Shown in pieces: positions 16,301-41,621 of a stretch of 64,000 bases of DNA. Under the pieces are notes generated by a model. It worked only from the letters and a program-made list of their open reading frames with translations. It was not told the DNA's origin and made no database searches. The position numbers and the translations under genes are program-made. The stretch comes from Sycon ciliatum (Eukaryota; Porifera; Calcarea; Leucosolenida; Sycettidae). Location: assembly GCF_964019385.1 (NCBI RefSeq), contig NC_088655.1, positions 9,298,130 to 9,362,129 of the forward strand, read 5' to 3'. Within the stretch, counting starts at the first letter, position 1. Every line of letters begins with the position of its first letter.

Positions 16301-19300
16301 AGGCGAACCGATACAAATAAGCGCTGGATCCCACCAGCCCACCAGGCAGACCGTGGCTCACCATGATCGGACGCCCCCCTAGGTGAAATGAAGAGACCCA
16401 CGTGCCAAAAACACAAATACCAAACAACACGCTCACAGAAATATTGCCACCCGGACCGTCAACGAGAATCTCAGAAGCATGTTACACCACTGGGCGTCAG
16501 CCATTCCACATGAGCGGGACAACCAGGCGGAGCACTAAAACGCTCGACACAAAACATGAATACTAGTAAAACGAAAAAGAAAGCACTTGTACTTGAAACT
16601 GGAAACGACGGAGTGCCACCACATCGAGTAAATCGATGGGGACATCTACCAAACTGAAACAAATCGGACGACACAGGATCGGAGCAGTCCGACGACACCG
16701 AAACGACGTGCACCAGTGCACAACACAGGGCGAGTAAGCAAACACGAGCAAAGCTACCCATGCTGACTACCATGATGACGTACCAAGCAACACGATGAGC
16801 ATGCACGACAGCACGGACAACAAACTTTCAAGTCAGAAGGTGTGAAACACAGTGCACACGACCACTCGAACAGCCAGAGGCCGGAGGGCGACAATGTACA
16901 CTGCTTCAAAACACCGCACACACAACGTGGGCCACAATCATGTACTAACAGGAGCGAGGCTCGAACAATGTACTCGTACACAAGAGAACAACCCGGGACT
17001 TCAATGCCACGAAGCGAAACAATTATTTTGAAAATCCCAAATCGAAGACTAGTACCAGGAGAACTACGTACAAGGTACCAAACATTACGCAGGGCAGACA
17101 AAGCATGCTCACCTGAGTAGGAGCTCCGAGGACAGGGTTGAGCAGATGGAGCAAAGCGGAGCCATGGCGAGGACGCGTGGAGAAGACAAGATTTGAAGCC
17201 ACGGCGAAAACGATCTCAGGGTCGTGGGAAACGATGCCACTAGCTGGGCGCCAATTGTCGTCGGGGGGTTTTAATCCCTCGCACGATAGCCCTTCCGATT
17301 ACTCTCGATATCTCATATCACACGGACGCCACACTCAGAGAACAGATTATCGTTCATGCTCCAAAGAGAGTCTCAAGAAGAAGGCACACAAAACAATCAG
17401 GATGCGCACGATAAGCATGCACGCATGCGCAACCTGCACGTGCCAAAAGGGGCACACACGTGCCAAAAGGGCAGGGACAACACTAAAGTCACTAAACACA
17501 ACACATGGGTAAGACAAAATTCTGGCTAACATTGATGGCAACTTGATCCTGCTCACATACATGTGGTACAGTGGACAAATTTCTACTAACACAAAGTTCT
17601 GGAAAAATGGGAGACATGCCCGCTTGCCCAAACCGTGTGACTTCTGTTAAAGAGTCAATGTCTCTAAACGACCAAACAGAATTGGACATGGCCAAATCTC
17701 CATAGACTACTTTATCCGTTGGGTACTTTATACTGAGCTGTCGCACTGTCGTGCAATCAGAGTGCACACCATGCAAGAAGACATTCTAAAACAAAAAGAC
17801 TCTATTCTAGAAATTCGACGAGGAGACAATAATTTTAATATGGCAATAAGTAGGACGAGCTGAAGCGACATGTGGACTACTTTATTAACAATGTAAGCGA
17901 TGGAGACGATGCAAGAAACAACCTAAAGGGTAAGGAAAAATACATGTAAGAAGAAAAAGGGCAATGGAAAAAAAATATGATTCGAACAAGTTTTCGTACA
18001 ACACTCTTCAGGAATCACCGTTGTACTAAAGAACAAAATGAGAACAAAGGAAATAATATAGCAATCAAGGTAGGGTGACACGATACAATGACAGCACTAG
18101 AATATCGAGGTGCGATTTCTCACAAAAGTGTGCAGAAAACAAGGGTATACAAGTAAGAACTAAGCGTGACAAGTGTGTATCAGCAACAAAAAACAAAAAA
18201 GTGAGAACGAATGATAATAATAACAATCATAAACAAGAAGGTGACAAAACACATTTAGGCACAAGTGGCAACAACGTTGCCACACTACACAACAGAACAT
18301 TATTTGAACAATTTTAGGGTAATAACACTATCTTTCTGGACACACAAATTCGGCTTATGAATGCGCTGACAAACAGCTTCCAAAACTTGTAACTGCAACA
18401 GATAACCATGACGAGCACGGCACAAAACAGAAAAACAGGAATCAGAATAAGTACGACAACAGTCAGTACTAGAAACCAAATGATTGTATACTGAAGACTT
18501 GTTATTACGAGACGGACGCACACAATCTCGACTCACGCGCACACCCTCACACTCCCTCTCACCCCCACTCAGCTCACCTTCTCCCTCACTGTCCGAATCA
18601 GAACCTGCTCCGTCATCCACCGCGGTTTGACTCTCCTCCTCACTTGCATCGTCCTGCGTCTCACCTTCACCACCCACGCCAACCCTGAATGCCGTTGCCT
18701 TCACGTCAGTCGTCGTCCTTTCCGATTGTTTCCTTTGTATTTTTACCGTGAATTCATAGGTCCGGTTGTAATCTGCTGTAGATCTCCGTGGTCTGTCATT
18801 TGCTGCTTTGTTTTGTGGATTAGTTGTTGTTGTTGTTGTTGGATGTGAACCTGGTGTTGTTGTTGGATGTGAAGCTGGTGTTGTTGTTGCCGCCATGGTT
18901 GTTGGTCTTTCTGTTGAATCCAGCTCTGGTTCCGGTGATTTGTCCCACCGGAACCCGAGTCAAGCTCCGTGTGAAGACATCCAAGAAGAAGATTGCCTGA
19001 TGAGTCCAGCGGGGACGAAACGTACGTCGCAATCGAGCTATGTCGTTGCTGTGTCATCTGCTATGTGCCATGCACTACTTGATGTACCAGCCTGCTATGC
19101 CGGATACCGCCAACCATGCATCGACCAGGCGCCAGGCGCGAACTGATGGTGGTGGTGGTGAGAAGGAGAGCTCTGTGCCAGAACTTTGCAGCCTAGAGAG
19201 CGTGTGTGGGCAGGCGTGTGTTTACCGCCATATTGCCAGGTGTGTCTTTACCACCATATTTATCAACCAACTCATGTCACAGTTATTTAATACTGAGGAG

Positions 19301-38093: not shown

Positions 38094-39030
38094 ATCCCGA
38101 AAGGAAATACGACGCTGAAGACGATGAGCTACATGGCAAATGCGTGCAACCAATAGTCCTAGGGCCCATTTGAAATTTCTCACTTTTACTTGACACATGT
38201 TTGCTAACATAGATTTTATGATCATTCCTGGATGGTTTTTGCCTCCTGAACACGATGGCATAGGTTTCGATTGCCGGATTGTGTCCGAACATGGTGAAAA
38301 ACATCAAAATAGAAAAGGCCGTTATTACCATAGCAACCCAACTAGAATTGCTCCTATATCCATTTTTACTGACACGTATATGGCCAAGTAGCACCTCATT
38401 TTGCTCAGAATAAGCAGTAGATACAGTACGGCAACAAGTACTGTACTTTAACAGTGTCAAAACAAAATTTCCAAGGTGCAGTGAAACTTGGCTATTGGAC
38501 ATGTACATGCACAGTACATGTCGCGTCGAATGTTAGCATTGAGGTACGTGTACATGTACGTGCAGCTAGCAGGTACATGAGACTATTTACAGGCATGCAT
38601 TACTATAATCAGACTGCAAATACGAGAGAAGCGTCAGACGGTTCGGCGTTACACTTCAACTGAGAGAATAGGTATTGTAACCCAAATACTAACAGGAGAA
38701 GGAAAAGGTGGTAGGAAACTGTCAGAGTCTAAGGAACGAAGTGCTATAGGACAGTTTCAACCTGAACTAATTTACTCGAAGTACGTGTAGATAATACGAT
38801 AGATCTTGCAGCAATGTAAGAAGGACAACACTACTTGTATGCGATGGCAGTGCTGTAACGAAAAATGATGAAAATGAAAATACCAAAATCCTTTGCATAA
38901 AACAGTCCAAACATTGGCTAGCTTGTCATTCAAGGCTGCAGTTGGACAACGCTCACATGTGAATAGCTGCAGTTTAAAAAGCTGATCGATCCCAACATTG
39001 TGATGCGAATACTTTCGCTTCCATGTGTTT

Positions 39031-39636
39031 TGGGAGAATCGTACATCGCAATTGAGCTATGTCGTTGCTGTGTCATCATCTATGTGCCATGCGCTACTTG
39101 ATGTACCAGCCTGCTATGCCGGATACCGCCAGCCATGCATCGACCAAGCGCCAGGCGCGAACTGATGGTGGTGGTGGTGAGAAGGAGAGCTCTGTGCCAG
39201 AACTTTGCAGCCTAGAGAGCGTGTGTGGGCAGGCGTGTGTTTACCGCCATATTGCCAGGTGTGTCTTTACCGCCATATTTAGCAACCATAAGTACAGCTG
39301 CAGTGGTGTCTTCAACTTCATTCTCCCGAGTCAAGCTCCGTATGAAGACATCCAAGAAGAAGATTGCCTGATGAGTCCAGCGGGGACGAAACGTACGTCG
39401 CAATCGAGCTATGTCGTTGCTGTGTCATCATCTATGTGCCATGCGCTACTTGATGTACCAGCCTGCTATGCCGGATACCGCCAGCCATGCATCGGCCAGG
39501 CGCCAGGCGCGAACTGATGGTGGTGGTGGTGAGAAGGAGAGCTCTGTGCCAGAACTTTGCAGCCTAGAGAGCATGTGTGGGCAGGCGTGTGTTTACCGCC
39601 ATATTGCCAGGTGTGTCTTTACCACCATATTTAGCA
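39031..39636 (+). mobile_element. Tandem retrozyme (about 1.7 copies of a 352-bp unit) with hammerhead ribozyme
   Basis: Two direct copies with a period of 352 bp, read from the matching TCGCAA at 39046 and 39398. The first copy starts inside the 3' half of a degenerate hammerhead; the second junction carries a complete type I hammerhead (39362-39405). The array is flanked by TCCATGTGTTT at 39020-39030 and 39637-39647, an 11-bp target-site duplication. Tandem non-coding units of a few hundred bases bearing a type I hammerhead with a very short stem III are the hallmark of animal retrozymes, non-autonomous retroelements spread through circular RNA. A single-copy relative lies at 18954-19269. 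The open frames across the unit look incidental. Confidence 0.85.
39362..39405 (+). ncRNA. Type I hammerhead ribozyme (retrozyme copy)
   Basis: Stem I GATTGC/GCAATC is 6 bp. The conserved CTGATGA is at 39368-39374. Stem II GTCC/GGAC has loop AGCGG. GAAA occupies 39388-39391. Stem III is the self-complementary ACGT-ACGT with no loop, and cleavage is predicted after C39399 (GTC). A stem III without a loop cannot fold stably within one molecule, so this form is expected to act as a dimer, as in other animal retrozyme and Penelope-type hammerheads. Confidence 0.9.
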
Positions 39637-40254
39637 TCCATGTGTTTCACTTTAACTGAAGTTGTTCTTCCGTCTGAGCTTCGAAACTCTACGCCGTACA
39701 GCTGAGCCCATCTCTACTCCGCCACCTACACCATCACTATTGGCTCTGCAGTCAGGGACAATTCTTTAGCCACTAGTTCATGAGGTATTACATGAACATG
39801 TTTTCCCTCTTCACCACCGCTCTTGAATCGCATCAACTACGTGCCGTGATCAGTTCAGGAGAGACAAGCCACGACATTGGACATCGGACTCTTTCTTGCA
39901 GTTAGTGTTTTATAAGTATAACTGTAGTTTCACACTGCCTAGGCCCAGCCATCAAATTCTGCGACAAGGAAATGATTCTTCTACTGCTGGTGTTGCATAT
40001 TGGGATAGGTTACCTCCAGGTACTCGGATTTCGTTTTTGTAACACTCCACACCACATAGCTACTCCCTCTCACTGCAGCATGGCACTCCTAAGGCAGTTG
40101 TCCTAGAGCTGTTGAGCTGGCAAATAGGCTTTGTGATAATGGTAGCTGATCACCACGGTCGGTGTGTTCAAATCATGGTACTAACACTAGCCGCTCTTGT
40201 AGATTCGAATCAAATGCTCGTCCACTGTAACACCTCCTGTGCAGCAGTACTCAC

Positions 40255-40653
40255 AAAGTAAATGCCTTCATTCCAGCCCGATGAAGTTAGCCAGGTCTGA
40301 AACTTTCCACGGTTGTAGATTAGTCCTACGAATACAAGTAGTTACAACTGGCTTGGCAAGCTATGATGACTTTCCCCTGCTTTCCACACATAATTGTTGT
40401 GCTGCTCCTTGTTGGAATCATGCCTACTTTTCCGGGGAGCCAAGATGACATTGTAATGAAGGTTCTGCTGAATTTAGCATCGATCCATTCGTGGACGTTC
40501 CGACAGCAAAAGCACCAGCGAGTCAATGCAAAACTTTGAAGAAAGTGTCCAAACGAGGTAACACATTTCTGGTATGTCACAACTACACTACGGTACTTGA
40601 TGCTCAATCTTTCCAACTCTCGCACAAAATCAGTGTACGCGTCGGTTCGCATC
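40255..40653 (-). other. Candidate two-exon fragment of an unrecognised minus-strand gene
   Basis: Exons 40592-40653 and 40255-40325 have AG acceptors and GT donors (GTAGTG, GTGAGT) and join in phase across codon CGA. The joined peptide includes DFVRELERLSIKY and YNRGKFQTWLTSSGW. I recognise no family. Upstream and downstream exons were not found, so this could be a gene relic or coincidence. Confidence 0.25.
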
Positions 40654-41621
40654 CTGTGTATGTACGGTGTTACTATAGCTCCTGGCACATAAAAGGGTAA
40701 AAACTCCCAGGTCCAGTCAATATAGTACCGAGAAAGTCTTGAAAATGCTTGAATATAGCCGATGAGAACTTAGTTTTTTCGGCAATTTTGTATTCCTATC
40801 GAGGGTGATTTCGGGACCTTTGGACGCGATTGGACTCGCCATACTGGGCCAAGATGCTCTTGAAGACATTATCTATCAAATAACACCGAAAAATCCTTGT
40901 TAGCCAACATGTGTCAAGGCATGTATTTTAGAGGTCGATTTTTTGAATTGGCCCCAGTACTACAAGTGAAATGCCCGAAAAATCCTTGCCGATTTTACTC
41001 GAACTGTACGTGAGTTCAAAAAATTGCCGCATCATGACGTATGTGGGCTCAAACGAAAGCTGAGGGCCTCAGCTACATGCTGCGCCACACGAGAAGGCCC
41101 TGCGCAGCTTCCGTGCAGCTACAGATCGATCTATGCATGCGCCTTTCCTTGGTGCCACGCATGTACGCGATTCAGCGTTAGCACTTTTTGACAGGTCATG
41201 TCACGTGACTGAAGTGCCTACTTGTAGTTGTACGTAACCGTTGTAGTTTTCTGGTCAACGCGCTGCACGTGATCCTGAGCCTGAGGAGTCGAGTGATGAC
41301 TGAGCTGAGGAATGAGGTGCATGCACTGACCATGCAACAATGTGGTGCCGGCGCGGTGGTGCCACCTAGTACCAGAGTACCTGTGCCTGTGGCTGTGCTG
41401 CTGCAGCAGTGCAGGCCAAAAAGTTGAGAAATAAGAATAAACGCCATATGCCGGGTGGCATATGCATAGGGACTGATCGATTGCCTCATTTTGTTGTTGA
41501 CGTCTTCGAGTTTGAACCTGTTTATTTCCTCCTCACGCTTTTTGATCTTCCATGAATTTTTTTCATGCTGTGCTTTTGTTGATCGGATCGGATTGGCTGA
41601 GTGCGGAGTGGGGGCTGAAGA

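Follow-up and report, generated by a model that had tools for sequence, protein, structure and literature searches.

Head-to-head hammerhead retrozymes in the sponge Sycon ciliatum and the footprint of Penelope-like elements

Metazoan retrozymes without long terminal repeats (non-LTR retrozymes) are described as tandem copies of a noncoding unit of 150-450 bp that contain a type I hammerhead ribozyme and are bordered by a target-site duplication (TSD) longer than 4 bp (PMC7229834). What mobilizes them was left open in the same account (Cervera and de la Pena 2020, PMC7229834), where Penelope-like elements (PLEs) are put forward as a strong candidate because both kinds of element have hammerheads and tandem copies and occur together. 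Here, we describe a retrozyme in a 64 000-nt stretch of the genome of the calcareous sponge Sycon ciliatum (NC_088655.1, positions 9,298,130 to 9,362,129, forward strand; hereafter, the window), together with its relatives elsewhere in that genome. We consider it very probable that it is a non-autonomous, hammerhead-bearing retroelement of the animal retrozyme type that is copied in by a Penelope-like enzyme, with the two target strands primed at two sites on its RNA, A and B.

Two PLE systems provide the background to this proposal, as set out in the consulted sections of the respective papers. The purified PLE protein of Anolis cleaves and extends both strands, and its cDNA starts at two adjacent internal sites that bound a 'tail' (PMC11167929). 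The PLEs of Adineta have inverted pseudo-long terminal repeats (pLTRs), TSDs of 8-10 bp and a 31-bp tail on one pLTR, and self-priming was proposed for them (PMC3846280). Amongst the retrozymes themselves, the axolotl families include one with a weak helix III that does better as dimers (PMC7229834).

Insertions across the genome and their paired ends

The initial annotation, made from the letters of the window, had proposed a tandem animal retrozyme with a 352-bp unit and expected tandem copies with conserved hammerhead cores throughout the genome. Such copies exist: a search of the 538-Mb genome (313 contigs) with window positions 39020-39647, a query of 1.7 units, gave at least 123 matches (40 of 1391 candidates scored), and of 109 full-length units sampled, counting carriers and a duplicated locus, 96 retain the core pattern. 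The retrozyme family is real and apparently recent. All 28 clusters among the matches listed that lie outside the carrier element described below were mapped, a set in which short and single-unit copies, such as that at window position 18954, are under-sampled. These 28 loci hold 29 insertions, 22 of which are head-to-head palindromes of tandem arrays; a minus-strand array is followed by a plus-strand array, with the 5' ends inward, and the order of plus then minus, as a whole, occurs in none of the 22. At L035, there is an additional minus fragment on the right side.

The outer ends of the palindromes are not placed at random along the unit. In 20 of the 22, an end at site A (unit positions 32-46) is combined with an end at site B (349 to 6), and 30-47 nt of RNA separate the two; pairs of two A ends or two B ends are absent (0/22), and site A is on the left in 12 of the 20. 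Since L033 and L045 represent one duplicated event, the count may be given as 19 of 21, and 19 mixed pairs would have a probability of 2e-6 under independent end choice at 0.5. The outer ends define a short segment, which in the window is:

39289-39326, plus strand: 'tail' segment, unit positions 1-38, bounded by site B of the preceding unit and by site A, containing AGCTGCAG; placed from the outer ends of the 22 palindromic insertions elsewhere

Flank repeats of at least 9 bp border 19 of the 22 palindromes (12-14 bp in 17), compared with 2 of 812 mismatched flank pairs, and some of the repeated bases may match by chance. The targets are AT-rich, with 73% in the adjacent flanks against a background of 54% (17 of the 22 palindromic insertions). 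By eye, the left flank of L047 and the right flank of L051 place these insertions at nearly one place in two copies of another repeat, which suggests a target preference. Judged from these sequences, the retrozyme insertions have the footprint of a PLE insertion: head-to-head arms, a tail at one end (30-40 nt in PLEs, 30-47 nt here), AT-rich targets and a short TSD. The initial annotation was correct as to anatomy (tandem 352-bp unit, hammerhead, copies and TSD), and missed both the palindromes and the match to two PLE start sites.

The same genome contains PLEs, for which PLE1-3 are family labels of the present analysis. Matches to GIY-YIG led to an 802-aa frame at C1:2907166, with the Pfam GIY-YIG domain in its C-terminal part, above the cut-off (residues 701-745 of the L067 frame), after a stretch resembling the reverse transcriptases (RTs) of defence systems. 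Reverse transcriptases of the PADLOC collection match residues 329-503 of the PLE frame with E-values of 1.7e-4 (RT_UG4) to 0.0044. RT followed by GIY-YIG is the published order in PLEs (PMC11167929, in the text consulted). A genome search with the frame gave at least 57 matches (56 of 3572 candidates scored), many of them with frames of about 900 aa without a stop and several in tandem; at C1:78524354-78538499, for example, five PLE units with 902-aa frames free of stops stand in direct tandem at a spacing of 2935 bp.

These local PLEs have the same insertion anatomy. All five mixed-orientation clusters among the scored matches are head-to-head, and in each of the three insertions seen at both ends an A end is paired with a B end, between flank repeats of 11-12 bp. 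The insertion at C1:97.53 Mb ends at reference position 444 on the left and 479 on the right (flank repeat TATTCGATTTTG), and that at C7:1.37 Mb at 479 on the left and 448 on the right (ATGTACAGTTAT), so that the A-B spacing in these two BLAST-mapped insertions is 35 and 31 nt, respectively; L067, read by eye, has A on the left and B on the right (AGTTGTCTTCC). A second PLE family is represented by one B-ended copy and two tail-extended copies. A CTGATGA..GCCGAAACGTTG motif lies near the end in all three families, and no Rfam hammerhead was found in the PLE ends up to an E-value of 1 (two families scanned). The sequence CTGCAG is in register in the retrozyme tail and the PLE tails, and the summed similarity of the retrozyme tail to those of the three families was equalled by 202 of 20 000 background windows and by 46 of 5000 shuffles; family by family, 57 of 20 000 windows score as high for PLE3. 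Taken alone, the PLE1 tail is not significantly similar to that of the retrozyme (154 of 2000 shuffles). A direct match of the unit to the stretch between PLE open reading frames (L070) or to L067 was also sought, and gave nothing better than an E-value of 1.7.

The proposed course of events starts from what is observed directly, namely the anatomy of the insertions, their TSDs, the A and B ends, the junctions of the arms and the like anatomy of the local PLEs. An enzyme of the PLE type would make staggered cuts in the two target strands, about 10-14 nt apart, and both exposed 3' ends would serve as primers for cDNA synthesis on retrozyme RNA, with site A as the start for one and site B for the other. 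Each cDNA would then extend upstream, over 14 units in the longest case, and the two free cDNA ends would be joined, often with 1-4 nt of microhomology, so that a first TSD is followed by the inverted array, the direct array and the second TSD. The template would by necessity be multimeric or circular, and a circle is favoured. In the window, one such insertion would have hit an inverted-repeat DNA element, which later spread with the retrozyme aboard. A more far-reaching version, to which we give somewhat less than even credence, is that both target ends prime on the same small circle of ribozyme RNA, that a PLE dimer holds the two adjacent start sites, and that both enzymes travel round the circle repeatedly; the arrays would then be copies of one RNA, the palindrome would be the normal product of insertion, and the retrozyme would be a circular-RNA satellite of PLEs, with a DNA transposon as its second vehicle.

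Several observations weigh against a PLE-driven origin or against parts of the scheme. Two palindromes depart from the rule of paired ends, L040 (A with position 308) and L054 (B with position 16, its right boundary being placed at the first plus block). The flank match of L039 is poorly placed and that of L038 lies in a microsatellite; in addition, seven of the 29 insertions have a single orientation, and only one of these (L056) has a flank repeat of at least 9 bp. As for the PLEs, the RT domain of the frame matched no Pfam RT family at E <= 10 and none among solved structures, the hammerhead-like motifs of the local PLEs are unlike the retrozyme hammerhead, no PLE carrying the 352-bp unit was found, and the tail similarity is weak for PLE1 (3454 of 20 000 windows score as high) and PLE2 (876 of 20 000). 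The unit has a GC content of 53.1%, and animal retrozymes are reported at less than 45-50%; in our judgement, low GC is a descriptive rather than an essential trait of retrozymes. Finally, of the 12 loci where at least three full units are present, seven have no private variant fixed in all units, and the units of L055 and L037 are heterogeneous.

The template and the joining of the arms

The nature of the template may be approached through the length and uniformity of the arms. Of 38 arms measured, 31 are longer than one unit, the longest being 4913 nt (19 of the 22 palindromic insertions, with L040, L045 and L054 left out). The number of changes separating two units is 2.1 if they belong to one arm, 2.5 if they lie in opposite arms at one locus and 5.2 if they come from different loci, with the reverse trend at L054 alone. 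Full units are present on both sides of the junction at 10 loci, and over these the cross-arm similarity exceeds all of 20 000 permutations. This test and the comparison of private variants drop the units of the second insertion at L043 and of four fetched carriers. In five of the 12 loci that have at least three full units, a private variant is fixed in all units: L032 has one common to its 17 full units, whichever arm they are in, L043 and L052 have one each that is fixed across both arms, and in single arms L055 has two and L056 three, the latter in all four units. That one type of template was copied repeatedly fits most of these loci. Both arms usually appear to be of one template type, which is consistent with, and not proof of, a circular RNA copied repeatedly; gene conversion or linear array transcripts are possible sources of the same uniformity.

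The strongest alternative overlaps with the scheme above and differs from it in the template, which would be linear, namely a read-through transcript of a tandem array in the genome, and would be used by the same PLE mechanism. We regard this as a serious contender that falls a little short of an even chance. The heterogeneous units of L055 and L037 fit it well, as does the report that hammerhead mutants had no effect on insertion by the Anolis PLE in vitro (PMC11167929, in the sections consulted). It is also in keeping with the position of the inner, 5' ends of the arms: 3 of 42 fall within 10 nt of the hammerhead cut, where 2.5 are expected, and the cut was rejected as the 5' end of the template on this count. 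There is a mild excess of arm 5' ends in the tail region (19 of 51 against 9.1 expected, P 0.0008), a region picked post hoc from the list, with the window copy entered at position 103. Against a linear template stand the near-uniform arrays of L029, L032, L034, L038 and L056, among them the two with variants fixed in 17 of 17 and 4 of 4 units, and the retention of the hammerhead core in most units, which, if active, should cut long transcripts.

A quite different origin of the inverted arm is fold-back self-priming, proposed for Penelope in 2013, in which a strand copies itself. It accounts for the palindromic architecture and has the precedent of the Adineta proposal (PMC3846280, as far as the consulted text goes). 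It predicts, however, that the arms meet at near-equal unit positions. The junctions are instead scattered and unequal; of the 22, 13 have microhomology of 1-4 nt, four are blunt and five contain short filler, and the arms meet within 35 nt of each other in 4 of 21 cases, where 4.2 are expected (L045 is left out of the junction tests as a duplicate of L033). Self-priming also leaves the pairing of an A end with a B end at opposite sides of the insertion unexplained, and we consider it improbable.

Insertions of long interspersed nuclear elements (LINEs) also give TSDs of about 12 bp and 5'-truncated arms with microhomology joins, and LINE-type target-primed insertion of the retrozyme RNA with twin priming would, to that extent, explain the same features. 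Twin priming by LINEs is a minority outcome with a variable second start, whereas 22 of 29 insertions here are inverted and both starts are fixed; moreover, the local PLEs leave the same footprint, and such a LINE origin has, in our view, a similarly small chance of being correct. The spread of a satellite DNA by recombination, inversion and segmental duplication, without an RNA step, is very improbable, since separate sites have their own flank repeats and two constant end positions, and an empty site exists for the carrier insertion, even if some copies are clearly duplicated DNA (the flanks of L003-L006 and of L033/L045) and gene conversion could yield homogeneity within arrays.

The window copy, its hammerhead and its carrier

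In the window, the direct tandem at 39032-39640 comprises 1.7 units, as the initial annotation had it. It consists of about 257 nt (39032-39288) followed by 352 nt (39289-39640), and the two copies are 96.5% identical over 259 columns. The features of the locus are:

39020-39030, no strand: left TSD, TCCATGTGTTT; single copy in seven empty carrier copies among 20 cut out
39032-39039, minus strand: probable inverted stub of 8 nt, GGGAGAAT, starting at site A; exact reverse complement of unit positions 32-39
39040-39288, plus strand: first retrozyme unit, 5'-truncated, starting near hammerhead stem III; from the tandem mapping
39289-39636, plus strand: second retrozyme unit, ending at site B (unit position 348); from unit mapping and empty sites
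39362-39405, plus strand: type I hammerhead with loopless stem III, ACGTACGT; Rfam RF00163 (Hammerhead_1), 35.4 bits, cut-off 34
39637-39647, no strand: right TSD, TCCATGTGTTT; from the empty-site comparison
38154-40962, plus strand: carrier of the retrozyme, an inverted-repeat element that is apparently noncoding and has TA at either end; from repeat comparison, flanks and frames
18954-19269, plus strand: separate second retrozyme copy of one unit, positions 37 to 352, with a hammerhead at 18991-19034; from the Rfam match and unit mapping

The right edge of the retrozyme is at 39636, and 4 nt at the end of the 352-nt repeat frame already belong to the TSD. The left edge, 39032-39039, is probably an inverted stub that starts at site A; these 8 nt may also be read in the forward direction if one deletion and one substitution are allowed. 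The unit had been called noncoding, which agrees with the longest frame in the tandem array (152 aa), which had no match in Pfam at E <= 0.1. Neither an RT nor a GIY-YIG reading frame was found in the 352-bp unit, and by its sequence the retrozyme does not appear to be an autonomous member of the PLEs. That the unit is a diverged PLE reading frame was likewise rejected, the frame through the hammerhead stopping 75 codons into the unit and the 152-aa frame having no Pfam match.

The complete type I hammerhead was borne out by the Rfam score and the conserved core; its proposed dimer-type character has the support of a folding model. Stem III in the window is an 8-nt palindrome without a loop. 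Two hammerheads co-fold at -30.0 kcal/mol with an intermolecular stem III of 8 bp, compared with -10.5 for one, and the best predicted fold of a lone hammerhead differs from a hammerhead. Cleavage is predicted after GTC at unit position 111, and the ribozyme is presumed to be active. In four tallied units, CGTAGATACG replaces CGTACG, a longer and closable version that would give stem III a loop. The unit has no unusual RNA stability (z 0.77), and its exact hammerhead core had no match in viral contigs. The second Rfam Hammerhead_1 match in the window, at 18991-19034 on the plus strand, belongs to the separate single-unit copy.

A genome search with Rfam Hammerhead_1 gave at least 21 matches, four of them above the cut-off (74 of 76 236 candidates scored). 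None of the 21 listed is at the copies studied here, so this search gives no count of the retrozyme family. Two of the 21 places were inspected, one an isolated motif and the other a different retrozyme array. The former (L068, C2:21060800-21063800) has, at about 1495 on the minus strand, a single hammerhead of other sequence, with no surrounding tandem repeat seen. The latter (L069, C13:12600900-12602900) extends over about 217-1064, with three hammerhead units at a spacing of about 228 bp in one orientation; by eye, AACCTATAACCT-like repeats stand at both sides, and a separate partial copy at 941-1064 is flanked by ATAACGAAG. The L069 array is not head-to-head, and this second retrozyme family may insert differently.

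The retrozyme of the window and both copies of its TSD fall within a repeated element of about 2.8 kb, at approximately 38154-40962, which is why the TSD marks one older insertion into a transposon. Twelve genome matches span the whole of 39020-39647, both TSD copies included. At least 40 carrier copies were listed, and 20 of these were cut out and compared: 13 are loaded, with the full insertion in 12 and 0.7 unit in the other, and seven (L021 and L023-L028) lack the retrozyme, with 91-95% identity over the left part. The seven empty carriers have TCCATGTGTTT once, where loaded carriers have two around the array, so that the TSD is not due to chance. That 12 loci share the TSD had raised the alternative that it is part of a larger repeat, which the empty sites reject. 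The 11-bp duplication noted initially is real, and is not private to this locus; the retrozyme anatomy stands, and the carriage of this copy in a DNA element had been overlooked.

The carrier has inverted arms of 29 nt (90%), and TA is present at every end displayed for the 21 rows compared, 19 on the left and 17 on the right. It is overlapped by six frames of at least 80 aa, and the two carrier frames scanned had no Pfam match. With its inverted repeats, TA ends and unrelated sites, it can be classed by sequence as a TA-type inverted-repeat DNA transposon, the TA presumably being the target duplication. Loaded carriers stand at 10 distinct flanks, and four copies on two contigs have one flank in common. 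By this evidence, one retrozyme insertion into the DNA element made the 11-bp TSD, and movement of the element then multiplied the retrozyme to about ten sites. At L014/L061 (C11:26052000-26055000), the array of a loaded carrier is cut to about 0.7 unit, perhaps by recombination between direct repeats. Common flanks at L003-L006 (C13 and C8) and at L033/L045 (C8) show these to be duplicated segments, or assembly duplicates, carrying the element.

Comparison with known systems

The interest of the retrozyme insertions is that they themselves bear the PLE footprint, including two fixed start sites, one for each target end. The arrays help to discriminate between models of PLE replication (two-strand priming and self-priming), they offer a small natural template for biochemistry, and the loaded carrier shows how a retroelement is multiplied by an unrelated DNA element. 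In the literature listings consulted, no title or opening of an abstract reports paired A and B ends in retrozymes or a DNA transposon loaded with a retrozyme.

The Sycon element shares with metazoan non-LTR retrozymes a tandem noncoding unit (here of 352 bp), a type I hammerhead, a TSD longer than 4 bp, many copies and co-resident PLEs, and differs from them in its GC content, which is 53% here and low there (PMC7229834, sections consulted). Head-to-head palindromes with paired A and B ends are not described for metazoan retrozymes in that source, in the main text of which 'inverted' occurs 0 times. With PLEs, it has in common the head-to-head arms, the one-sided tail, AT-rich targets, short TSDs and a hammerhead motif (PMC3846280 and PMC11167929, as far as consulted). 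In contrast to the PLEs, the unit is 352 bp rather than about 2.9 kb and no RT or GIY-YIG frame was found in it; its hammerhead has a 6-bp stem I, and the stems are unlike those of the local PLE motif.

LINE twin priming, as it is generally known, resembles the present case in the use of two target ends as primers and in microhomology joins; the retrozyme ends differ in using fixed adjacent start sites, and do so as the usual outcome in the sample. Plant LTR retrozymes are likewise non-autonomous hammerhead elements in direct repeats (PMC4918200, as listed), and differ in having TSDs of 4 bp, long terminal repeats with a primer-binding site (PBS) and polypurine tract (PPT), and type III hammerheads (PMC7229834 and PMC7761336, in the text consulted). 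The Sycon retrozyme is a combination of known kinds, through which the proposed link between retrozymes and PLEs is made testable.
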